DNA of 64,000 nucleotides, from the NCBI GenBank assembly GCA_021234155.1, contig JAJEKV010000411.1:60001-124000 (forward strand), given 5' to 3'. This DNA is from Isoetes taiwanensis (Eukaryota; Streptophyta; Lycopodiopsida; Isoetales; Isoetaceae). Shown here one piece after another: positions 10,178 to 62,669 of this stretch. The notes beneath the pieces are model-generated. The model saw only the letters and a list, made by a program, of their open reading frames with translations, ran no database searches and had not been told where the DNA came from. The position numbers were made by a program, and so were the translations under genes. The first letter of the stretch is position 1; each line of letters opens with the position of its first letter.

Positions 10178-10985
10178 AAAGAGCTACACCACGCCGACAC
10201 CCTCCAAAGGTTGCCGATATATGGGGCAATAAAGCCAACGAAAATGCATCAAAAAACATAAATTCTTTAATAAAAGATGCCCACGCCGCTCCCGTCCAGA
10301 GTAAGGGCCACCACGGTGCAGAAGGCCAATCAAGAACTACCAATGTAATACGAGCATGGCACGCGGCCATATGGTGTAAAACCCGGGGAACTAACGAGGG
10401 TGGAGGAAAACAAAAATTGTTAAAGAGGTTCCAATCGTAAGTGAACGCATCAGGTGGAATGCGGTGCGGATATGCAAATCGAGTATTATAAACGGGAAGC
10501 TTGTGGTTAAGGGGAGAGGCAAAACGATCAACATGATGCGGGCCCCACAAAGAATCAATATAGCTTAAAACACCACCGGGGCAAGGGCAAACTCATCGAT
10601 TGAGGAAGGCGAGAAAGATAATCGCCCACTGCGTTTTGGGAACGCGGAATCCACACAGCTGTGCCCAAGGAGATGGAAAAGTGAAAACAAAGTAAGAAGA
10701 TCTCGAGGGTGAGAAAATGAATATCAGGCGAAGAACAACCCCTTTTTGGAGAATGGTGGCAACATTCAAATTATCCCCCCGAACAGTGACCAAGCGATCA
10801 TGGAGAAAAGGCAAGGCCGCGCGCAAAACGTGATAGAAAGCTAAGAGTTCACGCCAAGTGGAAGAATGAGAAAGTTCTGGACTCAGAAAAAAGGCCAACA
10901 AGATCCAAGGGGTTCTGCCCCAGAGAAGGAGCCACCTCCCCCCAACCAAAATGAACTGGCATCAAAACCAAGGATGGCGTAAGGA
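10152..10985 (-). pseudogene. RNase H and downstream connecting domain of the DIRS/Ngaro-like element
   Basis: GFDASSFWLGG at the end of the reverse transcriptase frame gives the first RNase H aspartate, SSTWRELLAF the glutamate, and VRGDNLNVATILQKG another aspartate (10949-10593, shifted frame). The following stretch 10550-10152 reads MWGPHHVDRFAS...LPVYNTRF and DWPSAPWWPLL, the extension typical of DIRS-order elements between RNase H and recombinase. Two frame changes separate the pieces. Confidence 0.75.
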
Positions 10986-12268
10986 TGGCGAGGTGAGGAA
11001 ATAGGGCGAAAACTCAAAGAAGAGGCGACGGATTCCCATAATACAATTTCCATGCGGGCGAAAGAGGATAAAGAAATAGGAGCATCCCAGTGCCAAGGTT
11101 GAATAAGGCGATAGGAAAAGAATGTTAAAGGGGAGACAAGGGAACCGAAAACAATGCGAAGGGACTGGAGAAAGCCCAAGAATTTGGCGAGGTAACGGGA
11201 TGTAAGATGAGAAGCGGAAAGAAGCGAAGAGGAGAGGTGAAAAAACTTGGCTAATTTCTTAGAAGATAGGCAAATAACCATGGCAGAAGCGTAAAGGAGA
11301 AACCCGAGGAAAATAGTTTGGTGTGACAAACGCAGACGACATTTAGGCCAAGCAATGAGAAACCTAGCAGATTGCAAATCAGAAATGATACGATGTTGAA
11401 GAGAACTAGGGTCATGCTGAGTGTTAAAAAGGAAATCATCCATATAAAGAGTGCAACGAATACCGGCCGCGCGCCAATGGCGGACTAATGGGCGCATCAA
11501 TTTGGTAAAGACAAAAGGAGCAAAGGCCAGTCCAAAAGGTAGCATAGTGAAGATAAAGAAGTGGCAGTCAAACTGAAAACCCAAAAAAGTGTGATGAGGA
11601 GGCCAAATGGGAATATGATGGTAACCAGACTTCAGATCCAACGTAAAAAGAAAATCCTGGGGTTGAAGGACAGCCAAAGCATCAGAAAGCGACTCGTAAC
11701 GAAAAGAAGGAACAGACAAAAAGGAGTTAAGATAGCGTAAGTCGAGAATCAAGCGGAACTTGTGGTCGCCCTTGGGCACCACGCCAAGGGGTGAGCAAAA
11801 AAAGGGGCAGGATGGGACCTGCATAACAGCACCAGTACGCAAAAGGTCTTGAATGGCAGAATGGGCGAAAGGAATATGCGAGGACAGGGAGGAAAGGTTT
11901 GGGCAAAAAAAGGGTTGAGATGGCGGTCCCTGGGCCCAAGGGAGAGCATAACCATACTGGATCCAAGACAATACAAGAGGATTGGCAGAAATAGAGCGCC
12001 AAAAAGGTAAAGATGCAAGGAGATGCCCACACACAGACAAGGTAGCATAGTAGGAATCGAGAGCCACATGGTCAAAGGGGAGATGGGGTGAAGGAGAGGT
12101 AAAAACTTGGCAATCTGCACAAAAAAGACCCGTCAGAAAACAATATCTTTTATTAATGATCAAAAGTAAATACAACACATAGAAGAACAACCTAAAATGG
12201 CTCAAGAAGACAATAAGGCGGGAGGCAACCTGTGGAGGAAGGCCGGATGATGTGGGCTGCCGAGGCAA
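10883..12268 (-). CDS. Reverse transcriptase of the DIRS/Ngaro-like element
   Basis: A 461-residue open frame, the best preserved part of the element. Motifs in order: SPLGVVPKGDHKFRLILDLR (fingers), FLFTLDLKSGYHHIPI (first catalytic Asp), FTMLPFGLAFAPFVFTK, and LYMDDFLF with the YMDD box near 11440, then a thumb region with IFLGFLLY. It copies the element RNA into cDNA. The absence of stops over 1.38 kb contrasts with the broken recombinase, suggesting the element is not very old or that some indels are consensus errors. The initiating ATG is uncertain. Confidence 0.85.
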   Translation of the reverse strand: MPRQPTSSGLPPQVASRLIVFLSHFRLFFYVLYLLLIINKRYCFLTGLFCADCQVFTSPSPHLPFDHVALDSYYATLSVCGHLLASLPFWRSISANPLVLSWIQYGYALPWAQGPPSQPFFCPNLSSLSSHIPFAHSAIQDLLRTGAVMQVPSCPFFCSPLGVVPKGDHKFRLILDLRYLNSFLSVPSFRYESLSDALAVLQPQDFLFTLDLKSGYHHIPIWPPHHTFLGFQFDCHFFIFTMLPFGLAFAPFVFTKLMRPLVRHWRAAGIRCTLYMDDFLFNTQHDPSSLQHRIISDLQSARFLIAWPKCRLRLSHQTIFLGFLLYASAMVICLSSKKLAKFFHLSSSLLSASHLTSRYLAKFLGFLQSLRIVFGSLVSPLTFFSYRLIQPWHWDAPISLSSFARMEIVLWESVASSLSFRPISSPRHPYAILGFDASSFWLGGGGSFSGAEPLGSCWPFF

Positions 12269-12626
12269 AAAGCCATTAACTGAGTGGGGTTGAGAGGCAA
12301 TGATTGAGGAAATGGAGAAGAGAAAAAAGGAGGGATGGCGCTATGGAGGAACCGGGCGATTTTAAAAAAACAATTGTCGGCAAGTAACAAAAACGTAACC
12401 ACAAAAAGTACAATGAAGGGTGGAGGGATTGGCGGGGAAGAAGCGTAAGAAGAAAAAGTAGCGTGATGAAGGGTATGGCAAAGCGAAAGCACGAGAGAGG
12501 CTTTCTCTTTGGCTTAATTTCTTAGCCCCGATGCGCGCTTGACTCGTCCGAAAAAAAATTCAAACTAAGGGACTCGCTAAATTGCAAAGTTACGTCGAGC
12601 CATGTTGATCAGCAATAAGGACAATT

Positions 12627-31467: not shown

Positions 31468-31838
31468 TAACGAGATAATCACTTCATTTTGTTTCAAACT
31501 TTGCTACAGTAACTTACTATAGATGTGGAATCGCTCAGACACTTGTATTCACTTGGCAAGCCCAAGCCTTGGTCACAACCTTTACCTTAAGCTGATCATC
31601 TAAAACCACATAATCTTCAATGTACTTGTTCGGTTTTAATAATGTTCAGTCCGGCAACTATGCCGAACTGATCTCCAAAGGATCAGCCCGAGATGACAAC
31701 TCCTGGGTTTTTTTATTCTCCATGGCTCCAATATATTGGACGGACTTATCATTCTATAAATAGTTAAGATTACCTTATGCATCATGTTCAATAATAGAAC
31801 CACCAAAATAGCCATGGCTTTTATCTCGGACCTTTTTG
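31468..31838 (-). mobile_element. Distal part of the copia 3' LTR
   Basis: The remainder of the LTR whose start is at 39571, separated from it by element B. The outer end (TGTAACGAG at 31468, reading CGTTACA on the minus strand) is a guess based on the TG...CA rule; the sequence right of it is continuous with the part beyond 39433 once element B and a TTTG duplicate are removed. Confidence 0.45.
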
Positions 31839-32261
31839 GGGTAAACGCACGCAGGTGGGGGGCATTTTCGCGAAATCCAAGCACCCCATCAGCACAGCAC
31901 CCTTACTTTTTTTTAATGAAGTTTGATGGAATCTTTTGCCCGTCAATTTCATTTCTTTGCACTTCACATTTCTCCCGCGCCCGAGGTTCGAAGATGGCGC
32001 CCTAGCTGCGCCCATTTCTTGTGAAAGGACGATCAGAGTGCATCAGACCATCATTTCGAAGCAAATAATGTTGAAGCAGATCATTCTGGAACCATCCTTT
32101 TAAGAATGAGTTACATGGAATCATATGATGGGGATCCTTCATCCTGGCAGTATCCGGAAGGGAGACAATCAGTAAGTCTTTTTTTTTCCCTAATTTCCTC
32201 CCCCTTTCTATGAAGATCTAAAGGGCGATTTTTTTTGCTTAGGAGATGAGGTTTGCTACAA

Positions 32262-34372
32262 CAGTTCAGGAATTTCATGAATACAGGAGACTGCCGAATG
32301 AAGGAAGGGATCCAAAATCTATAACCTGGGATGATTGCAGCCTTGACGATTTTTGAGTGTCTGGACCACAGATTTGAAGTGTGGTAAGATCAAACTGCAC
32401 CAAGTTAGGCCTGAGTTTGCTGATGGCCTGGATGATCTGGTCTATAAGGTTTACCAGTTTGGCTTAAAAAACAAAGAAGCCAGAACTATTTTTGCCAGAG
32501 CCTTTGCCTACCAGAATACTAGACGTGCTTTAGCTAACCCTGCCAAGCATAAGCTAAACTGGGCCCTTTTCGGATGGCAGACTTTGCAAACCTCTAAAAG
32601 AAACACAAGGAAGAGAACAAGTAGAGAAGAGACTGTTGTGACCAGCATTGCAAGAAGTATTACATTAATGGAAGATGAGCAGAAGTGCATTAAAGTTGAA
32701 GTGCAGATTTTGGAACAGGAGTTGAAGGCAAAGGAGAAGGCTCTTGTTGGATTGAATGGTCTGCTTGAAGGCCTTGATAAATTGCTGGCCTCAGTTTCAG
32801 CTGACATACAAGAGACTAAAAATGATATTTTAGCATTAAAGGAAACCTGTCCCGAAGAAACAGTTGTGATCGAGAAACAGTTCAAGGGCTAACATTGCTG
32901 AATCTTTTGAAGCATAAGAAAGCATCAGATAATAGTGAAATGCTTAATGAAGAGGTACGTGTTATCAATGAAAGACTTGCTTCTATTAGGACTGTAGAAC
33001 AAGAAATAGATTCTAAGATTGCCAACATGGCTTCATTGAAAGATAAATTTGTGAACACTACAATCATTAGGCCATCCTTGGAAATTGGGTAATGGGTTGG
33101 CGGGGATTTAGGTTGCCGTGGTTTGTGGCATGGGCTTTAGTGATCAGTTTGACATGCATATAAAACTGAAATGTGGCCACCAGGCCCACATCTTACGCCG
33201 ATCGCACCGCAAAACCTACAATGCATTTCTTGTCACATTGAACTCCCCGAAGATCTATATCAAGAGTTAGGTTATCTGGATTTTAGGCCAGCAAACAAGA
33301 ATGATCATGAGTCAAGCAATGAATTGAATGAATCATTGAATGCTGATGATGAAGAAATTGGTACACCTGCTAAGAAATTACAAGTAAGAAGAAGACCTCA
33401 AACAAGATCTTTGACCAGTCCACAAAAAGGTACGTCACGTGTTGTTCTTGTTATAATCTACAATTTGCTTCAGTTAGATCTAAGTTTAAGTTAGTATTTT
33501 TATAGCAATGAGTTAGTAGATTAGTAACTGTTATGACTGCCATGCAGCAGATGCACAAAGTAAAGGTTGCAGGAAAAGGCAAGTAGTTGATGTCGAGGAA
33601 TTCGACAAAGAAACAGAAGTATCAGGTTAGTCATCTATATTTGGTATTTAAATTTATGAATTTAGACCTAACTAATGTTTGTTGTAGCAGAAGATGCAGA
33701 CAATATTGAGCTGGAAGAGATTGCAATTGGGAAGGCTGCTAAGAAGAGCGCCAAAACCGGTGGCTTCGAAAAACTTAACAATGAATAGAAGAGGCGGGAA
33801 AGAAATGAAGAAAACCAAAGAGGTGGCAGCAACAGTTCCTCTAGAGGTGCAAGAAAATGCACCTGTAGAAAACACCTCCGCTCAAACAACTCGAGATAGC
33901 AATTTGAAGAACTCTGATAAATTATGTGGTAAAATTGCTCTTATTTCACCTCTTGCCAACTACTCTGATATTTGTGACTGATTTGTTTGCTGAATGTACA
34001 GGTAGCCAAGCAACAGATTCTTATGATTCGAGTAGAATCCAAGGCATTTGGTTTTCAAGTGACAAATATGATCCCTATGAATATACACAGTCATATGATT
34101 TAGGAAATTTGTTTCAAGGTCCGGCACATCAAGCAACATCTGAACTTCCCAAACCAAGTGAAGATCCGGTTGTTCCAAATGCCAGTTCCCACCAGAATGC
34201 ACAAGTACCAGGTTCCACTACAACACCTATGCCTACACAAGCTGATGATGAAGTTCAATCACCAGCCAGCAAGCTGTTAGTTGGAGCAGCTCAGTCCGAC
34301 ACGGATTCGGAGGACGAAGACATGACCTTGGGTCAATATACGGCGGCTGCTGGTCTGGTTATAAAGAAATAG
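32262..34372 (+). pseudogene. Coiled-coil protein of element B, spliced, with frame breaks
   Basis: From ATG 32266 (RFATTVQEFHEYRRLPNEG) a stop at about 32354 is followed by the long frame 32353-32892 with LDDLVYKVYQFGLKNKEART, FARAFAYQNTRRAL and a coiled coil (QILEQELKAKEKALVGLNGL). 32895-33092 continues the coiled coil, and 33190-33429 is acidic, ending before a GTACG donor. Exon-like pieces at 33548-33627, 33690-33927 and 33999-34372 are acidic/basic and end VIKK-stop. The FARAFA stretch plus coiled coil is shared with the element A gene. Function unknown. As read it needs two or three frame corrections, so I treat it as broken or partly mis-sequenced. Confidence 0.55.
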
Positions 34373-35150
34373 CAGTTAGTTTTTGAATTGTACATATTCC
34401 AGTTGTTCTGTACATGGGAATTAACTTGTATTTAAAACATCCGAATGATGTATATTTTGCTGATAGGATGGAGTACAGTTTCGTACTCAAATTTTGTACA
34501 ATCTTCAAATTTTGCACTCAAGATGCTTGAGTGACTTCATATTACAGATATATATATAACAGGGAATATAATATCATTTTGCACTCCTTACTCTATCACA
34601 TACTTGATTCTAAGACTTGTGAAAAACCTGGTTTTAACTTGTGTCACATACTTTTAACTCTGGTTTACTGTTTGCAACCTGCAGAATTATGGTCGGACCC
34701 AATGATCTGGAAATAGCAATAGTAGCTTTGTACAATACTTAAAAAGAATGGGTCTTTATATGGTGGTTAAAATAACCAAGTTCAAAGAAATTTTATATGC
34801 CTTGCATCACATTCTTAGCAATCCCAACTTTAATAATGTAACCATGGTATATTGGTCAACTCAACTATTCCAATCTTAATTAACCTGCTACACTCTAGTT
34901 TTAAATATGTGTTGAATAAAATGTTAACCACATAGTTTGGGATTTTCATAGTTTGGAATGCTTGTTTGTTGGATGGAATAAACTCGACTTAAGTTTGGAA
35001 TACATTGAATTGCAAACCAGGTCACACATTATGTACAACCTTCAATGCTTTTCATTGCCCTGTATTCTATGCAAAAGGTAAACTGTTACATGGATATGCT
35101 ATGAATTCACAGCAGATTTGAATCATGTGTACATAATGTTCTTGTCCTAG
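34373..35150. other. Spacer between the element B genes, no gene
   Basis: AT-rich, with several TGTACA motifs (34388, 34411, 34495, 34731 and onward). The TGTACA motif is also clustered in element A. Confidence 0.5.
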
Positions 35151-35158
35151 AGTATGGA

Positions 35159-35710
35159 ATATCCGGGGGTGTGAATTGCACTTTGTTTAAGGAAATGAAT
35201 AAGAGAGATGTGGTTGTGGAACTCTATGATCCAATCATATGCACAGAATGGTTGTGGTGAAGATGCCTTAGTGTTATACAGGGGAATGCAGGAGGAGGGA
35301 CTGTGCCCAAACAAGATTACCTTCTGTGCCATACTTAACACGTGTTCCAGCCCCTCAATGTTAATAGAGCTTAAGCTAGTGCAGATGGTGTGCTGGTTCA
35401 TGCAGATGGTGTGCTGGCTGTCGCAGGTTCTAAGCTGATCCATTCTTTTATCATTTCCAATGAGTTAAAGCTTGGTTCTTCCGCAATAGCTGCACTTGTC
35501 AATATGTATGGTAGCTGGAAGTTTGGAGTGGGCAACCCTGAATGCCATTATTTCAGCATATGCATGGCTCTTCAGACGGATGTGGCACTCCATTTTCTTA
35601 GTCAAATGAAACAAAGTAATAAACTGCCAAATGAGCTCCTACATATAGTTATCTTGAATGCAGCTGCCAAATCGGCAAATGAACACAAACTTATTGCCTG
35701 TATTTTGTGA
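35159..35710 (+). pseudogene. PPR gene fragment captured in element B
   Basis: 35208-35340 reads WNSMIQSYAQNGCGEDALV, LYRGMQEEGLCPNKITFCAI and LNTCSSPSM, typical consecutive pentatricopeptide repeats (L and S types). 35430-35700 continues KLIHSFIISNELKLGSSAIA, ALVNMY and LHFLSQMKQSNKLPNE. A one-base shift precedes WNSM, and a 21-base duplication (GCAGATGGTGTGCTGG, about 35382-35424) breaks the middle. PPR proteins act in organelle RNA processing; this piece has no start, targeting peptide or DYW domain. It sits between the two element genes. Confidence 0.8.
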
Positions 35711-35772
35711 AAGATGTACACAAACTTTAAAAGGACTGTAAATAAACAGTGATGTATTATGAAAATCTGTAA

Positions 35773-38700
35773 TCAAGTTTTACAAACCCATTTTATGCTT
35801 TTCTTGGATGCTTTTATGCTTCTTAGGGGAGCAATTTTTGGCTGTTCTTTCTTTTTCTCTGACCACCATTTGCTTTCTTCCGCCACAACTTTCTTTCTAA
35901 CAACAGCTAATATTTTCTTCTGTTTTCTAGATTTCTTCTCGACCTTGGACTTGGACTTACCATTTGCCAATGTCTCTGAATCTGGTGGAGGTAGGCAATC
36001 TACAATGTGCTTATGTGTCTCTAAAGGTAGCTGGTACATGGATTCTTCACCTGTAATAGCTAACAATTCTACCTTTGCACATATGACAAGATGTGAATAA
36101 CAATTCACATCGGGCATTGAATGACATAACTCATACCTATCGCCATCAATATACTTAAAGTACTTGCCTGTAAGAACAACCTCTTGTCTGTTAAATTTTG
36201 AACCCCATTCATCTGTGAAAGATCTTTCTACTACATGCTTGGGCTCCTGCACTTCACAATCCGTAACTCCACATTTTCGCCGTTGTTAGCCTCGTGATTA
36301 ATTACAACGTTGTCACCGACTTCTACAAGTTCAGCCTTCCACCGATTATCACCTTCATATTGGACATGAGTGATGTGTGTTCAATCCCCATGATTTCGGT
36401 TTCAGCTCGTAATATCGTGGCGGCCCCAACCTTCTAATATTAAGACACTTATTCCACAAACCCTTCCAACAAGCATTACAAAAGCATGACAAAGCTTTAT
36501 GTGCAACCATGGTAGGTCTACTTTGGCATATTGGTCGAATTGTATGTATCCGTGTGGTCCCCTTCAAGGTCTCACAATCATACCTTATCTTTCTACATAC
36601 TTCACCTACTCCTATTAGCCAAAACCTGTCTGCGACAAAAAAAAAAATCAGCAAATTAACATTTGTGTAGGATTTGTAAATGTAAGTTTTAGACCCATAC
36701 CTGATAATGCTGCTATCTTTCATTCCTCTTTTTATAGTAAAATACCACTTCAAGAAGTTCACAGCATCTTCTGCATTCCTTAGTGGAGTGCTGGACCTTT
36801 TTAACATCTCGCTGGTGAGTATCCCTTTTTATGGCAGCCCGGCGCCATCATGCTCGCCTTTGCCATGAGAAGATGCAAAGAAATTCCATTCCATTTTTAT
36901 TCCAAATTCTCTCATAAAAATCTTCCCAAATAATAGAATGACCTAGAGGACTTGAAACGCGGCAAAGACATCCATCCGACCAAAAGACATGGAGAGAGTA
37001 ATTTATACCTTTAGCGCCAAGTAGTCCGTGATGTTTTTGGAGACAATGTTGCACCTAAGTCAAGTGTCATGTTCACGATCGTGGACATGTAAAATGAGTC
37101 TCCTTCACTAGCTTACGGTCACCAATCTGGATATTTGAACTTTCATCTCTTCTTGCATGCCTATACGTGATATGAACAAGTATTGAACATTGGTCATTCC
37201 TCCAATGTAGTGTTTGAATTTCTTGCTGGATTTTGAAACTGTAATTCTCTGCGAAATCGATAACTGAGATGACTACATCTGCTGGAAATGTCTGTAGGCA
37301 TTCTTTGAACTACTCTGCCTGCCATCTGGCTGTGTAGTTATGTGGAATGAATTGCTTGAATACAGCATCAGCATGCTGTAAAAAATCAGAGCATGATGTA
37401 TTCTTGTACACCAATTTCATGACATCCTTAGTCTTAACAACTGGTTTCCACCTTTCCCAACATCTTTTGCATATGTTTCTTTCACCTAAACATACAAGTT
37501 CGATCAGCATGAAAGCATAAGAAGAAGACCATTTTGCAAGATGTAAGATCTGAAACAGTTCATTCAAATAACTGAAATATACCTTTTCAAAATTCTTCCA
37601 ATCCATCTTGACACGTTTGCTCCTCTCCTTTGGACATTTCTTAAAACATTTCAGTCCACAAGCACTACATTCAAGTTGCAAACAAGTCCCTTTATACCAT
37701 GTTGTTGTATCTTTCTTTGGGCATACCATGGACCTCCACATTTCACTAACACTCATGAACGTATGCTTAGAGGCTTCACAAGTTGGTCCATATCCACAAA
37801 CATCACACTTACATGTACAATTAGAACCATGCAACTTAGAGTCTCGCCCATCTTGCTCAAAGCTTGCCTTACAAATTCTGCCGCTCTCATGTGATAAATA
37901 CAAAGACATGTCTCCCTTTCCTTGAGCCTCCTTACAAACTTAGGCTTTAGAGCTTCAAACAAAGCGAGCCCAATCTTCATACTTGGATATTGCCTTTTGA
38001 ATCTTTTGTAGAACATTACACTGTAACTTAGAAATCAGTTAATAATTTTAAAGACCTATGACTTAAGCTTCACAATACATCATTCAAAGACCTTGCACAA
38101 AAAACCAAGCAAGGAAAAGAACATACATGTGACTCTTCTAAAAAGTGTATTGCATGTAACAAATGAGGTTTCAGCAATATATCTCCATTATTCTATCTCC
38201 TCAATTTGAGAACTTGTCTTTGTTTGAGAAACTCTTGTTTGGGAGACCCGTAAGTCATAAACCTTTTTAAGGGTCTTCATCACATAGCTTGTCCATTCTG
38301 GCTTTCTTCTTAAACATGGGCCACGGCCCTCCAAATTCAGCCCGTTTCCTCTTGTCTATAGCCACATAAACAGCCTTCCTCTTCAAGTTTAGAGCTCTTG
38401 CTACTGCAGCTCGATTGGTACAGTCATTAACAGCCATCATCATAGTTGATGCTCTTGCTTGATTGACGTCTTGAGTTCTGCATCTTTTCTTACTCTCAAG
38501 GGAATTCTTAACATTATCAAAAACATGCCTATACACATTGAATTCCTTAAAACCAATCATGTCAAATTCAGGAAGCTTCTCTGCTGCCCTGGAAACTACC
38601 TCCCTTCTATCATCTGGATGTAAGTTAGAACATACCTTGTTGATGTAATCCACAATCTACTTACATAAGCTTTGTTTATACCTAATGCCCACCCTTTCCT

Positions 38701-39064
38701 TATCTTCACATTGTACCAGTGCCTCCTTTTCAGCCTTCCTTTTTCCTCTCAAAGATCTTTCTTCTTGTCGACATAATTCTTCCATGATGGTGTTTGGAGA
38801 TAAACAATTACATGCTTTCTTGCAATCATTAATACATACTGGAGAACTTTGTTCATGCTTGCTACTTCCAATTGGAGATGAGATTGTCTGCCAATTACTT
38901 TCATGTACAGAACTTTTAGTTTGCAATGGAATTGGTATCTCCTCAGCCACATCAATGCTTGGTATATAAGATTGCAATTTGTAACCAAGAGCAGCAGCTA
39001 TCTCCTCTGGATCTGTACCTTCAAATCTCGCTTCAAATTCAGCTGCATATGTTGCAACAAGATC
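35773..39064 (-). pseudogene. Putative DDD/E transposase of element B (DFAENY family), broken
   Basis: Read leftward. 39064-38660: MDLVATYAAEFEARFEGTDP and RSLRGKRKAEKEAL. 38653-38267: CTNRAAVARALNLKRKAVYV (helix-turn-helix-like). 38016-37560: LFEALKPKFVRRLKERETCL and Cys-rich CTCKCDVCGYGPTC, CSACGLKC. About 37270-37180: VIDFAENYSFKIQQEIQTLH. 37054-36850: VFWSDG, then in a shifted frame WNFFASSHGKGEHDGA. 36807-36355 and 36252-35773: C-terminal part with GDRYELCHSM and a basic tail. The motif order matches element A. At least one frameshift lies between WSDG and HGKGEHDG, so this copy is probably inactive as read. Confidence 0.65.
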
Positions 39065-39433
39065 CATTGAAGCCCAAAGAATTTTGAGGCATAATCGAAA
39101 TTCATGCCCAAAGAATTTTGAGGCATAATCGAAATTCATACATGAGAACCTGCCATAAAAACAAGAAATGCATTCCTCTTTCTTGAAAATTGAATTCCAG
39201 CAGCTGCATGCTATTAGAAAGCGGGAGATCATCCCTCCCTAGCTGGATTGATGACATGGCTAAACAAACTTCCATTTCTGGAGCCTTTCGAACCTAATTT
39301 TGCCCGCGCTCAAAAGAACCCGTCATGGGCATGTTCTTGCAGGGCAAAAATGCACTTACTAAAAAGTAAAGCACCCCATCAGCACCCAGTGTCGCCGACA
39401 TTAAAAATGCCCCCCAGCTACGTGCGTTTACCC

Positions 39434-39571
39434 TTTGAAGACCCTAAATTGAACATGATCTTCTTCCCTAGCCAATATAAATGATCTCACAATATTCATG
39501 CTGTCATCATTGCGGTCTTCAATCTTACAGTTTAAAATACATGTACAGCTAGACATTCTTCATATTCTTCA
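39434..39571 (-). mobile_element. Proximal part of the copia 3' LTR with polypurine tract
   Basis: On the minus strand the pol frame ends ...YDIKGG-stop, overlapping a purine-rich tract (AAGGGAGGA, about 39572-39580), and the LTR starts TGAAGAATATG at 39571. Element B interrupts it at 39433. Confidence 0.6.
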
Positions 39572-39729
39572 TCCTCCCTTAATGTCATAGGCTGTACATT
39601 GTAGTTTATCTTTCAGGAAATTAAACCTGTATTCTGGTAAGGCTTTGGTCATGATATCTGCTAATTGATATGCACTGCAGACATATGTTAATTTAATCAT
39701 TCCTTTTTCGACAGTTTCTCTTATGGAAT
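39572..39729 (-). pseudogene. Copia pol, C-terminal end of RNase H
   Basis: Reads [30 protein letters not shown] and a terminal KGG-stop. The LADIxTKAL motif is diagnostic of the end of Ty1/copia polyproteins. It continues upstream at 42754 once the LTR element at 39730-42748 is removed. Confidence 0.85.
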
Positions 39730-42700
39730 TGTTAGTTGTGAGTTCTTGGCATGCATTTTCGCAAAGAGCTAGCCTATGATCGGGCCGGATGCTACAAAGC
39801 TGCCATGCTCATGATCACAAAACAAGAACAAGACAAAGAAATATGCACAAAGAATGAAGGGAACGTGGCCAAATGAGGCTCTCCAAATATGAGATCAAAC
39901 CTGAGTACATCTGAAGAGGCTCCGGTCTAATATAGTGTAGACCGCAAATCTAAGCCGTACATCTAACTAAATCTAATCCCTACACTTATGTTAACCTAAT
40001 CATGCCAAGTGTCAGTCTGCCACCACTGACACCTAACATGTGTACAATGTTAACCACTAGGTGGTTAACACTGCCTCCCCCTAAAAGTTTTTTAGCACAA
40101 AAATATGTACAGACTTTTATAAGATAAGTCCGACAATTACAACATGGTGCCAAAAATTTAGGGGTGTAAATGATGGTAATGGTTGGGTGGTGTCGCCGTA
40201 AAAGATCTTCATGATTCCGTTGAGGACGAATAAGATCCGAATGAATGTCGATGGAGAAGAACATGGATCATAGGAACATGGGCCAAAAAACATAAAGACC
40301 ATCCCCTAATATTATGGGTAAGTCTATTTTATTATATAGTGCCCAAAAGTTCACTTAAAAAATAATTAAAGGGTCTTCAAAAATGTAAGCACCAAAAAAG
40401 CTTCCCCTGTGATCAGCCATAGAAAAGCGTGGCTATGTGTGACAATATTTTGTAGAGCGTGGATCTGGAGCACAAAGCGTGGCTGGAGCGTGGACTTGGC
40501 GTGACAATATTTTGCAGAGCGTGGATCTGGAGCACAAAGCGTGGCTGGAGCGTGGACTTGGCGTGGGCGTGCGTGAGGTTGGCTCAAGAATTAGCGTGGC
40601 CCGTGGACAGTGAAAGAAAACTGAAGCGTGGAGGGTGGGGCCCCGTGAGCGTGACCCCGTGACCCCGTGAGTGAGCCGTGAGCCGTGGGTGCAAGCAATA
40701 AAGTTTGAGCGTGGGTCAACACGTGAGTAGGGCACGGCAGGAATGTAGGAGACCCTAAAAAGTGCAGAAAGGGGCGGCCAAATCTGAGCCGTTGAGGTGA
40801 AAAAACCCTAAAAATGAATGTGAAAGCAAGGGATAAGAGATGCCGGAATAGAAGCTGCGAGATTTCTGCTGCCACAAGAACTTGCTATTTCTGCCCAACG
40901 AGTTGGCAACAGATCTGTGAAGGGCCGGATGTGAGATGCAGAGTTGGTCTTCTGAAAACAGAAAGAATGTTTGCACCTGAAAGGCCAAACATGGCGGTCG
41001 GATTTCGAGGCAACATGTTTGGAATCTACATACCAACACTCGGTGGATCTGCCAATGGAAAACTTGATGTGCTTGGTGCCGGATGAAATGTGAATAATAG
41101 CCACGGGTTGGTGAAAGCTTGATCAGATGAAAGAGCCGGTAATCGGTACTGCCTTGTTTAGATAGATAAGACTTTGCTTGTTAAGGTTACGGATGACGAT
41201 TTGGGAAGAAACTTGCTTTCTGGGGCCATCCATGCTCTTCTATGAAATCTTGAAAAGAATAACCGGTCTGGACGAATTTTGTGCAAGTACCCAGCTTGGA
41301 AAAAGAATACGAGATGGCTGCTTCAAACAAAGAATACTCCTCTGTAAAGCCGAATAGGCTGGTCATGTATTGCTCTAAAAAAATGATCACACTGCATGGA
41401 ATGTTGAAAAATCTGCTGCTTCTCTCTGTGATGTGCAGACAGGGGCGAATCTTGTATGAGGAGCGACTACCAGCTTGTGAAGAAAAAAACTTTGCTGTGA
41501 TTTATGGTAAGCTATAAGCTCATGAAAAATAGAAGCCTTGGAGGAATGTGATGAAATTATTTGCTGGTTTTGCAGTTAGTGCAAATCAAAGAGCCTGAAG
41601 GAATCCGACGTAAGGCGTGCTGGCTTGGAAGACAGAGTTTAATGGCAGGGGGTATGTGCTAGGGTGTATGTGCTTGAACGGATGGATGGGGGCTAGCCAA
41701 AGTGCTGGCTCTCTTGAAAAATTCAATAAGAATTGCATCTTGATACTGTACTGGAGATAAGCAGGTGCCTGCAGAAGATTTGCTGATAGAGAAATATGGG
41801 ACTTGCCTGTCATATAAGTGTTTGTGCAGAGAAAGACCTTGGGAATTCTTGCTTCAGAACCTGTGATGACGAAAGCTGGGGGCTAGCCACAGTGCTGGCC
41901 CTCTTGAAATAAGTGGAACAAGAAAGCTTCATGCAGAAAGCTTCTGAAGTACTGCCTTTGAAACAAAAGATTTTTGGGTGTGCAGAAGCACGTTTTCTGA
42001 GAAAACTGAGATAAAATAGAAGATAAAGAAGGAATCGAGATATTTTTGGCAGTTTTTTAGCAAATAGAGATAAAAAATATCAAACTTCTGACTTTTCTGA
42101 AAATTTAGCAGAGAGGAGTGCTGTCACCACTCCAAAAATCCTCTACTATAAAATTGTGCTTGCTGCAGCATGAAAAACAGAGTTTTTGAAAACGATTTTC
42201 ATGACCAAACTAAGTGTTAAGGAATTGATTGACAAAGGGGCCTCCAGCCGGACCATTTCAACAACTGGTTGGGCCAAATAAAGGAATTGAAGGGGTGAGA
42301 GTAGTGTACAAGAAGTATTCAAGAACTGATTAGGATAAAAGCAGCAAAGGCAACAGCAAAACAGCAAGGCTCAAGAAGGTGATCACGAACGAACCCGGCA
42401 TAACGGCGCCAGTGTTAGTTGTGAGTTCTTGGCATGCACCCTGCAGCAGCAGTCTATGACTGCCAGATGCTACAAAGCTGCCATGCTCATGATCACAAAA
42501 CAAGAACAAGACAAAGAAATATGCACAAAGAATGAAGGGAACGTGGCCAAATGAGGCTCTCCAAATATGAGATCAAACCTGCGTACATCTGAAGAGGCTC
42601 CGGTCTAATATAGTGTAGACCGCAAATCTGAGCCGTACATCTAACTAAATCTAATCCCTACACTTATGTTAACCTAATCATGCCAAGTGTCAGTCTGCCA

Positions 42701-42748
42701 CCACTGACACCTAACATGTGTACAATGTTAACCACTAGGTGGTTAATA
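39730..42748 (-). mobile_element. 3.0 kb non-autonomous LTR retrotransposon (LARD/TRIM-like)
   Basis: Two LTRs, 39730-40070 and 42413-42748, are highly similar, start TGTTAG and end TTAACA/TTAATA. GGAAT duplicates flank it exactly (39725-39729 and 42749-42753). On the minus strand the 5' LTR is followed by a primer-binding-like TGGCGCCGTTATGCC (about 42396-42411), and the 3' LTR is preceded by the polypurine tract CTTTTAGGGGGAGGCAG (40071-40087). The interior has no gag or pol, so movement would need proteins from another element. Confidence 0.93.
40439..40562. repeat. 62 bp tandem duplication in the LARD interior
   Basis: 40439-40500 and 40501-40562 are identical but for one base (unit starts GTGACAATATTTTG). 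It is followed to about 40700 by GCGTGG and CCCCGTGA short repeats. Confidence 0.9.
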
Positions 42749-50463: not shown

Positions 50464-52511
50464 AGGTGATGTCCAAAGACGATATACCTGGTCTCAAGAC
50501 GATACCGTGATCAGATCCGCCACGCAGCATTACCGCCATTTCAAACGACGTGTACGCCGACGTGTAATCAAGCAAGGGCGCCCTAGGGGGGCAACTTGCA
50601 AGGGTGCGCACACTTAGCAATGTGCGCACTTTAAACCTTTAACCCATTAAAGGCAGACCAAGGGTCATGGAAACCCTAAACCTAACTGAGAGCCTATGTA
50701 AGGTAACCAAACCCTAATTCTTCCCTTTTCGTCCACGAATCTTCCGAAAGCTTCGCCATACCGAGGAGTCAAATCCAACTCTCAAGATCTGCCTATTGCC
50801 CTAGCTCGTCAGATTCTCCTTCGACCCGCATCCCCAAGCGTAACGGGACATGGACGCATTCGGATCAAGAGGAGTGAACCGGGGATCAGGTATTTAGTCG
50901 ATTTAATAGCCTAAACTGTATTCCAGCCATCGAACCAATAGGTTTAGCCTATTAAATTAACCTTAGTAGCCAAGCAGATCCCCAGATTGACCCTAACTAA
51001 AGAACCTAACTCTATGATATAGATTAGTTCTTATTCTTTAGTTCTATGATGATGTGATGGATTGATGGCGGGTTTTCCCACACCCCCATCATTCGACCTC
51101 AAAGGCAGAAATCAGGATCATTTCAGTGGCTGCTTAAAATGCAAAATAGAATGGATTGGACAGAACAGAATGGATTGGACAGAAGCAAGAAATTAAGAAC
51201 AAATCTGGGCCCAAAATAATCTTCAATTTATAAAAATGAGAGAAGGAAATACAATGCAAATAGCCCTCCATGCCTCTGAAACATGGAGGGCCGCTGAATC
51301 CATGATCAAGAGAGGTCTCTGAACCCTCTCAAGAATCTTGGATCAGGGAGAGAGGAGGAACTCGTGTCCCTCGAAAATCTTAAATATCTTGCACCTCATA
51401 ATCTTCACCCTCCATTCCAACCTCTTCATCATAACCTTCCATTTTGCCTCTTCATCTTAACCTTTGATTTATGCCCCTTCATCTTAGCCTTCCATTTTCA
51501 CCTCTTAGCCATTTAAAATATTAAACATCCCAAAGGCCCTTATAAATCTAGGCCCTTAGGTTACAAATGCCCCCTCCTTTCTTATGTTGACCGGGTTCCA
51601 AAATCCCGGTCAACATGGATGGATGAATTCTGTGGACTCATTGTATTGGAAAGGGGGGTAGAGACTTAAAGCTTAGTAGTTGATGCTCCTAGCTAGCCTC
51701 CTTAGCACACTGTAGATTCGGCCTGTGTACAAGAACCACACCTGGTTGTGGGTGAAGGGGCCAGACTGGCCTAGAAGGAGGTTCGTGTTCTGACTCTTGA
51801 ACGATCCCTCTGGTGTGTGAGGCCTACCGGGGATCATTGTGGACAAGGTCTAATGGCTTGCCACTGAGTGTGGGTAGGGCATGGGCCCGACACCGTGGGA
51901 GTGGGGGTTCACTTTCCAGTGGGTTAATCTAATAAGGGCTGCTGGGTCTCTCTAGTCACCTTGAGTCAAGATGGAGACTCCTCGGGGGGAGTGATCCCAC
52001 CGCCCCATCGGAACTGGGGAGATGCAACCCAGAATAGCCCCTTTGGCTATGCATCCATGGGCTACGGGCCAGTCCCAACACTCTTCAACCTACTCCGCAG
52101 TGTGCACCGTGGAGGGGCGGATGGAGGACAACCCTATGCCATGTTCTCATGCCCAAATCCATTGTCATGATTTCATGCGCAATGAACTCGAGACCCAAGT
52201 CGTCATCCCCCTGAGTCGGGCACAGGGGTAGGAACCCATATGTATTGTCTTTGATCTTTGTCTATGTAGATGTTGATGTACCACCCTTCGAGGTGGATAT
52301 GTGATGATGTTATGTAATCGACATGTATGTTTACGCTTCGGAGTTTTAGGTAGACCCCCGGGAGCGGGGTAATGACCCTTCACTCTTCCCCATTGGGACT
52401 CGTTTACAGTGGGTGGATATGTGGAGGGCCTCAGATCGCGATGGAGCCGGGTATGGGGATGAACTCGTTTGTATACCGGTGAGCACCGTATCACGAGTAG
52501 GGGACGCCACG
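50464..52511 (+). repeat. 5' LTR of the chromovirus, enlarged by a solo LTR
   Basis: Aligns over its length with the 3' LTR after removing 51063-51620. The first bases (AGGTGATGTCC) differ from TGTGGCGTTCC of the 3' LTR; the end GGGGACGCCAC mirrors that terminal motif. Confidence 0.88.
51063..51615. mobile_element. Solo LTR inside the chromovirus 5' LTR
   Basis: Starts TGATGGCGGG, ends CCCGGTCAACA (TG...CA), and is flanked by TGGAT on both sides (51058-51062 and 51616-51620). The 3' LTR lacks it, so it arrived after the chromovirus. It contains repeated CTTCATCTTAACC and AATGGATTGGACAGAA phrases and no gene. Confidence 0.75.
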
Positions 52512-61168: not shown

Positions 61169-62669
61169 TGTGGCGTTCCATGCGATATATACGGTCTCAA
61201 GGCGATATCACGGAAATCTGACCGAAGCCAATAATGCAGCGTAACGCCGCCCGCACGCGGTAATGCCCGGCGGTAATCAAGCAAGGGCGCCGAGGGGGCA
61301 ACTTGCAAGGTGTGCACACTTAGCAATGTGCGACTTTAAACCTTTAACCCATTAAAGGCAGACCAAGGGTCATGGAAACCCTAAACCTAACTGGAGAGCC
61401 TATGTAAGGTAACCAAACCCTAATTCTTCCCTTTTAGGTCACACTAACCTTCCGAGCTCCCAGCTTTTTGAGGAGTCAAATCCAACTCCCAAGATCTGCC
61501 GCCGCGCCCTAGCTTCGTCAAATTCTCCTTCCAATCGCATCCCCAAAGCGTACGGCGATATGGACGATTCGGATCAAGAGGAGGAACCGAGGGGATCAGG
61601 GTATTTAGTCGATTTAATAGCCTAAACCGTATTCCAGCCATCGAACCAATAGGTTTAGCCTGTTAAATTAACCTTAGTAGCCAAAGCGGATCCCAGATTG
61701 ACCCCTAACTAAAGAACCTAACTCTATGATATAGATTAGTTCTTATTCTTTAGTTCTATGATGATGTGATGGATGGATGAATTCTCGTGGACCCATTGTA
61801 TTGGGAAGGGGGTAGAGACTTAAAGCTTAGTAGTTGATGCTCCTAGCTAGCCTCCTTAGCACATAATCAGATTCGGCTGTACAAGAACCACACCCGGTTG
61901 TGGGTGAAGGGCCAGGAATGGCCTAGAAGGAGGTTCGTGTTCGACTCTTGAACGATCCCTCCGTGTGTAAGGCCTACAGGGGGATCATTGTGGACTAGGT
62001 CTAATGGCTTGCCACTGAGTGTGGGTAGGGCATGGGCTCAACACCCGTGGAGTGGGGTTCACTTTCCAGTGGGTTAAGTCGAATAAGGGCAGTGGCCCTC
62101 TAGTCACCTTGAGTCGGCATGGAGACCTCACGGTGGGAGTGATCCCTACCGCCCCATCGGCCCTGGGAGATGCAACCCGGGAATAGCCCTTTGGCTATGC
62201 ATCCGGCTACTGATCAGTCCCAACACTCTTCAACCTACTCGCAAAGTGTGCACGAGGGGAGGGGCGGATGGAGTGGACAACCCTATGCCATGTTCTCATG
62301 CCAGCCAAATCCATTATCATGATTCCGCCCCGCAATGAACTCACGGGAGACCAAGCCGTCGATCATCCCCCCGAGTCCGAGCACGGGGTAGGAAACCATA
62401 TGTATTGTGCTGATCTTTGTCTATGCAGATGTTGATGTACCACCCTTCGAGGTGGATATGTGAGGATGTTATGTACTGACATGTATATTTACGCTTCATG
62501 AGCTAGGTAGACCCCAGGGAGACGGGTAAAATGACCCCTTCACTCTTCCCTTTGGGACTCGTTACGGGTGCGGTGATATGTGGAGGGCCATTATCCGATG
62601 GAGCCGGTATGGGGGATGAACTCTGTTTGTATACGGTGAGTGCACCGTATACAAGTAGGGGACGTCACA
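61169..62669 (+). repeat. 3' LTR of the chromovirus
   Basis: 1.5 kb, starts TGTGGCGTTCC after the polypurine tract and ends GGGGACGTCACA. It differs from the 5' LTR by many one- to three-base indels as well as substitutions. Confidence 0.9.

Follow-up and report, generated by a model that had tools for sequence, protein, structure and literature searches.

A decayed DNA transposon of Isoetes taiwanensis, probably a member of the Sola superfamily, with a convergent RING-H2-type companion gene

Introduction

To which group of DNA transposons does the element at positions 31839-39433 of the stretch described here belong, and what do its two genes encode? The stretch, referred to as the window, comprises 64,000 nucleotides of the Isoetes taiwanensis genome (assembly GCA_021234155.1, contig JAJEKV010000411.1, positions 60,001 to 124,000). 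The element is a dead copy of 7,595 bp with inverted terminal repeats and two convergent genes. A preliminary description, made from the sequence alone, had proposed that the leftward gene encodes the transposase of a group without a name. We consider it probable that a cut-and-paste DNA transposon of the Sola superfamily has decayed here, and that its group is most likely Sola1.

Results

The element is delimited by the following features:
31839..31868, plus strand: left terminal inverted repeat, GGGTAAACGCACG, 30 nt
39404..39433, minus strand: right terminal inverted repeat, 30 nt
31835..31838, no strand: left target-site duplication TTTG
39434..39437, no strand: right target-site duplication TTTG
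31881..31895, plus strand: subterminal motif GCACCCCATCAGCAC at the left end, direct orientation
39371..39385, plus strand: subterminal motif GCACCCCATCAGCAC at the right end, oriented like the left one

The terminal repeats noticed in the preliminary description are 93% complementary over 30 nt and rank first in an inverted-repeat scan of positions 31700-39600, where the two other 30-nt pairs are just 70-73% complementary. The subterminal motif is exact at both ends in five of six copies inspected, and is a candidate site for transposase binding. TTTG, previously called a probable duplicate, is present in both flanks, and perfect 4-bp duplications, which have no sequence in common, were found at 11 of 15 insertions tested. 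Twenty loci were fetched, 12 of which lack one end in the fetched stretch; one more (L022) has both ends in a rearranged state and was excluded from the count. The remaining seven have both ends in regular orientation, and together with the window they gave eight perfect duplications out of eight (TTTG, CGAG, TGGT, ATAG, TATG, TGAA, TCAA and TGTA). For seven more insertions, short stretches at the ends were read. Four belong to the window family: those on C1071 (TTTT) and C1082 (CAAT) have perfect duplications, that on C973 matches at three of four positions (TGTT/CGTT), and that on C87 cannot be read because one end is eroded. The other three belong to a related family, whose ends we paired from separate lists of left-end and right-end matches. 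C994 has a perfect CTAC; C1025 has a 5-bp ACGAA and no perfect 4-bp duplication; C1036 has no duplication, and its ends, 15.5 kb apart, perhaps derive from two elements.

Uninterrupted relatives of the insertion site exist in the same genome. A 400-nt query made of the two flanks joined without the element has end-to-end matches at C1047:13410224-13410618 (81%) and C1054:606126-606517 (79%), and by our count the junction is crossed by 24 of 33 matches to the flank query. Thus, the earlier claim that the two halves of the interrupted sequence rejoin holds; its identification of that sequence as a copia long terminal repeat (LTR) found no support, as eight nearby frames scanned against Pfam gave no match. 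The insertion-site matches are mostly clustered (C1054:513-606 kb and C1047:13.33-13.41 Mb, with a few on C1018, C1034, C1078 and others), a distribution unlike that of an evenly dispersed LTR.

The element is one of many in this genome (G000; 1.66 Gb in 1,110 contigs). At least 37 matches to its left end (first 462 bases) begin within query base 7, the window included, and at least 20, not counting the window, align over 458 or more of the 462 bases at 78-97% identity; 40 matches were scored out of 106 candidates, making these counts lower bounds, as is the right-end search (40 scored of 77). The exon encoding the catalytic core has at least 186 matches (147 of 9,259 candidates scored). The preliminary description had asked whether the leftward gene also occurs without these terminal repeats. 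The answer covers two families: copies of the window family share the ends, and in a second family, whose catalytic exon shows about 81% identity, the ends are homologous yet distinct, GGGTACACGCACG / GGGTGTACACACG. A 244-bp sequence at C1054:3718728-3718971 carries both ends of the window family and is probably a miniature non-autonomous derivative.

Over long aligned pieces, copies from the same family mostly share 84-97% identity with the window copy, although some pieces share less, and the catalytic exon, broken in the window, is open in several copies. Activity has therefore been recent on that scale. Between two families of this genome the catalytic exon has dN of 0.11-0.125, with dS too high to compute, and within families dN/dS is 0.2-0.6 in a sample restricted to stop-free exons (four and three copies), a choice that favours low values. 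The transposase was constrained while the families diverged, with purifying selection on intact catalytic exons.

The leftward gene is composed as follows:
35773..39067, minus strand: transposase gene, introns deduced, broken by frame shifts and stops (from open frames and copies)
37310..37939, minus strand: open frame with a Cys-rich region upstream of the catalytic core (from the frame list and alignment)
36824..37453, minus strand: catalytic exon with DFAENY (first Asp), WSDG (second Asp) and HGKGEHDG (third Asp) (from the genome match C121:96824-97453)
35773..36285, minus strand: open frame with the later part of a BAH-like C-terminal domain and a Lys-rich end (from the frame list and modelled fold)

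The introns of both genes were deduced from open frames in better-kept copies. In these, the exons of the leftward gene lead from a MDLVATYAAEF... start through the Cys-rich region and the catalytic exon to the Lys-rich end. The window copy has the Cys-rich region and the three motifs, as previously reported, with the motifs split by frame shifts and stops. It also has a tandem 34-bp duplication (94%) at the start codon (39066-39133).

A search with residues 330-760 of the spliced reading returned 58 proteins at E <= 0.01 among 1,103 candidates, from organisms including Ceratodon purpureus, Klebsormidium nitens, Nymphon, Mya, Euphydryas, Brassicogethes and Acipenser. A profile search returned 71 proteins at E <= 1e-8, adding Calypogeia, Littorina and Spodoptera. 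These plant and animal relatives are mostly labelled hypothetical, unnamed or uncharacterized proteins, and in every lineage most have no precomputed Pfam domain. In three alignments of rows picked from the matches of both searches (22, 52 and 28 rows), the aspartates of DFAENY, SDG and HGKGxxDG are invariant. The Cys-rich region contains four nearly invariant cysteines (C205, C218, C223 and C226 of P0015 in the 52-row alignment), and probably binds zinc. In a midpoint-rooted FastTree tree of 93 core sequences, the eight from this genome group with Ceratodon, Calypogeia and Klebsormidium, and the animal sequences fall outside; this placement was read from the topology.

As the preliminary description had stated, the protein is unannotated: the family has no accepted match in Pfam, NCBIfam or the sequences of the PDB, and a profile search of the latter returned 0 matches. 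Weak Pfam matches (E up to 1) involve 15 families and occur here and there in single members. The best is DUF6597 (2 of 34 members, E 0.00024), and leucine-rich repeat (LRR) matches in P0018 fall in that protein's own N-terminal extension. No prokaryotic locus was confirmed among eight pattern matches in GTDB contigs, no viral relative among 36 pattern matches, and Foldseek against viral models returned nothing at E <= 0.001. For two distant homologues, P0113 and P0115, the precomputed domains are SAP (PF02037) and chromo (PF00385), a hint that DNA- or chromatin-binding parts may have been exchanged in other branches.

The AlphaFold2 model of the transposase core is confident and positions the three aspartates as in retroviral integrases. 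Comparison by VIA-align 2 assigns the modelled core to the RNase H / retroviral-integrase fold; our statements on fold rest on this program, because Foldseek against the PDB gave no significant match for either model. The fold is shared with retroviral integrases, IstA and Mos1, where carboxylates follow strand 1 and strand 4 and a third sits in the next helix. The core is only about 10% identical to these proteins, its third residue is the Asp of HGKGxxDG, and the flanking domains differ. Judged by its motifs and modelled fold, the leftward protein is a DDD transposase; copies with the same ends, the three invariant aspartates and the predicted integrase fold all agree with the earlier proposal that it mobilises the element. 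The modelled BAH-like C-terminal domain has no BAH match by sequence in Pfam. It may read chromatin, and can be compared with the plant BAH histone readers EBS, SHL and AIPP3.

Sola transposons have been named since 2009, and those of the Sola3 group target TTAA. KDZ elements make duplications of roughly 8 bp, and the integrase core of Ginger1/2 is recognisable by sequence as Gypsy-like. We compared the element with these and other superfamilies. Sola elements are described as having a DDD transposase, 4-bp duplications, terminal repeats of 11-1124 bp and mostly a size of 2-9 kb (PMC10741241). They are known from Physcomitrella and apparently uncommon in flowering plants (PMC10741241, PMC9033089); Sola1 is reported in moss (PMC9033089) and Salpingoeca rosetta carries a Sola1 element (PMC6875170). 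The present element has three invariant aspartates with integrase-like placement, predominantly 4-bp duplications, 30-nt terminal repeats and a length within the published range, and its transposase family occurs in moss and animals. It therefore very probably belongs to Sola, and the earlier view that the group has no name is probably wrong.

The choice of group follows from the duplications. Sola2 of Dictyostelium and Polysphondylium likewise makes 4-bp duplications and is a DNA transposon with extra genes, but prefers AT-rich AWWT targets (PMC3627910); the 11 perfect duplications found here include CGAG, TGGT, CTAC and TGAA. None of the 11 is TTAA, the Sola3 target. As the duplications fit neither group, Sola1 remains. 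This membership by elimination is a strong inference, not proof, Sola having been compared by its described features. KDZ was rejected because its duplications are about twice as long, and Mutator-like elements (MULE / Mutator) because theirs are 7-12 bp (PMC10741241). Ginger1/2 was rejected because neither the window fragments nor the relatives have an rve-type Pfam match. Of the named groups that the preliminary description had held against its own proposal, Academ, KDZ and MULE, none fits: Academ differs in its domains, KDZ and MULE in duplication length.

The rightward gene was the other prediction of the preliminary description, which had called it a coiled-coil gene:
32106..34372, plus strand: companion gene, introns deduced, broken; coiled-coil-like stretch (by eye), RING-H2-type finger, acidic tail
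33112..33267, plus strand: open frame in which the RING-H2-type finger survives as a remnant lacking several zinc ligands (from copy comparison)

RING-H2 fingers have eight ligands in the pattern C-x2-C ... C-x-H-x2-H-x2-C ... C-x2-C. In the copy L009 the main exon of the companion is open for 430 residues, with a coiled-coil-like stretch (by eye) followed by GCCVCGMGFSDQFDMHIKLKCGHQFHIFCFQICLQNLQCISC, which shows this spacing. All eight ligands are retained in L009, L012, L013, L016 and L017, and also in the distant companions L059 (51% identity overall) and L060 (42%) of the same genome; in the window they are partly lost. The Pfam zf-RING_2 match is weak (E 0.7; 10.7 bits, where the cut-off is 27.3). 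The companion has at least 108 matches in the genome, many at 35-55% identity (103 of 3,543 candidates scored), and no homologue elsewhere at E <= 0.01 among 7,995 scored protein candidates.

When 147 transposase places were compared with 101 companion places, 29 pairs were found within 6 kb, all of them convergent. Within 12 kb there are 34 pairs (32 convergent, 2 tandem; about 0.2 expected by chance), and within 20 kb there are 38, of which 36 are convergent. In 22 of the 29 close pairs the identity of the companion to the query does not exceed 52%; one of these pairs, on C87, comes from a decayed member of the window's own family. It is thus well supported that transposase and RING-H2 companion form a conserved convergent gene pair in part of the family. 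The companion might help transposition, as a stabilising partner or as an adaptor to host ubiquitin. An opposite-strand accessory gene is also present in Sola1-1_Ec32, a Sola1 family of Ectocarpus; its product has ParB and methyltransferase domains (PMC12477816), whereas the companion here is of RING-H2 type. We found no Sola element with a RING companion or BAH-like tail in the openly licensed literature searched, within which the conserved convergent companion and the BAH-like tail both appear to be new.

Discussion

In the proposed mechanism, the transposase would bind the terminal repeats and, presumably, the subterminal ones. Its RNase H-fold core would use the three aspartates (DFAENY, WSDG and HGKGxxDG) to excise the element, and would join the 3' ends to positions staggered by 4 bp in nearly any target, which would produce the 4-bp duplication. 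A more speculative extension, possible though we hold it rather doubtful, is a two-protein system acting through host chromatin and ubiquitin. Here the BAH-like tail of a Sola-type integrase would read a histone mark for target choice, and the rapidly evolving coiled-coil RING-H2 partner, convergent since the families split, would act as E3 ligase or as E3 decoy, either for the transposase or for a host silencing factor.

Several points weigh against our interpretation. The probable kinship to Sola is drawn from described features, and four of the 15 insertions lack a perfect 4-bp duplication. The integrase match depends on a second aligner, VIA-align 2; Foldseek alone was not significant for the catalytic core (best E 0.011). 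What is known of the element comes from DNA sequence and models. As to the gene pair, for 109 of the 147 transposase places no companion is listed within 20 kb, nor is one listed for any row that ranks below C1032:9535061 by E-value. These rows include a numerous group at 57-66% identity (for example, C1056:21543972-21544586), in which the companion is either missing or too divergent to have been listed, given that just 103 of 3,543 candidates were scored.

An undescribed superfamily, that is, a DDD lineage with 4-bp duplications resembling Sola in general features only, would account for the lack of accepted library matches, and the strings DFSENY, DFAENY, DFSENF and DFAENF are absent from the 5.39 million openly licensed papers searched, although strings of this kind are seldom printed. 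A group missing from Pfam may still have a name, however: Repbase lists Sola1-3 (PMC4455052). Since every Sola feature that could be tested agrees, and Sola1 is reported from moss (PMC9033089), where this transposase family also occurs (P0015, Ceratodon), we regard a new superfamily as unlikely. Membership in Academ is far less probable still: the 3- or 4-bp duplications of AcademX are compatible, but Academ lineages encode a nuclease (AcademX) or a helicase (AcademH) (PMC10045372), and Pfam found neither domain in the window fragments or in five relatives (P0001, P0015, P0018, P0044 and P0058). Finally, the DFAENY protein could belong to a host gene family merely captured by the element, given that such elements do take up host genes (see the pentatricopeptide-repeat fragment below). 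Its abundance in the genome, its constant place and orientation inside full-length copies, the modelled integrase fold with its catalytic triad, and the lack of precomputed Pfam domains in most relatives of any lineage make this the least credible explanation of all.

If the family is indeed Sola, it is one that neither Pfam nor NCBIfam models and for which no solved structure could be found by sequence. With a confident fold, a catalytic triad, defined ends and a duplication length to work from, the mechanism can be tested directly, and the RING-H2 companion offers a concrete handle on the workings of a little-studied group. Together with the BAH-like tail, it prompts one to ask whether chromatin marks or ubiquitin serve DNA transposons in selecting sites or in evading silencing; chromodomain retrotransposons are the comparison for the use of chromatin marks.

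Captured gene fragment and neighbouring features

Between the two genes lies a further feature:
35011..35680, plus strand: captured fragment of a host pentatricopeptide-repeat (PPR) gene, two blocks with an internal deletion (from DNA identity)

This stretch matches two blocks (91% and 82%) of a PPR gene on C1025, with about 580 bp missing between them. That gene (L046, C1025:5027300-5030605) has at least 1,102 open codons and a PF13041 match at E 2.7e-118, and may be the donor or a close paralogue of it. A Pfam scan of the broken fragment gave no match, its kinship being shown by DNA identity. PPR pieces are recognisable in at least five copies of the window family (window, C1058, C903, C40 and C87); for L013, L015, L016 and L023 no alignment covering it is listed. 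Pack-TYPE and other transduplicating plant transposons likewise contain host gene fragments, as do some copies here. Pack-TYPE elements are non-autonomous (PMC8903248), whereas the PPR fragment sits in copies that also hold transposase sequence.

Just to the right of the element are two direct repeats of about 340 bp (39730-40068 and 42413-42746; 95% identical, starts 2.7 kb apart), which could be the LTRs of a short retroelement. Elsewhere in the window, a 485-codon frame on the minus strand (10886-12340) has a reverse transcriptase domain (PF00078, E 2.9e-16) and is perhaps a LINE-like remnant. Positions 50564-52510 and 61273-62668 are linked by a long direct duplication, whose two blocks show 90% and 86% identity.

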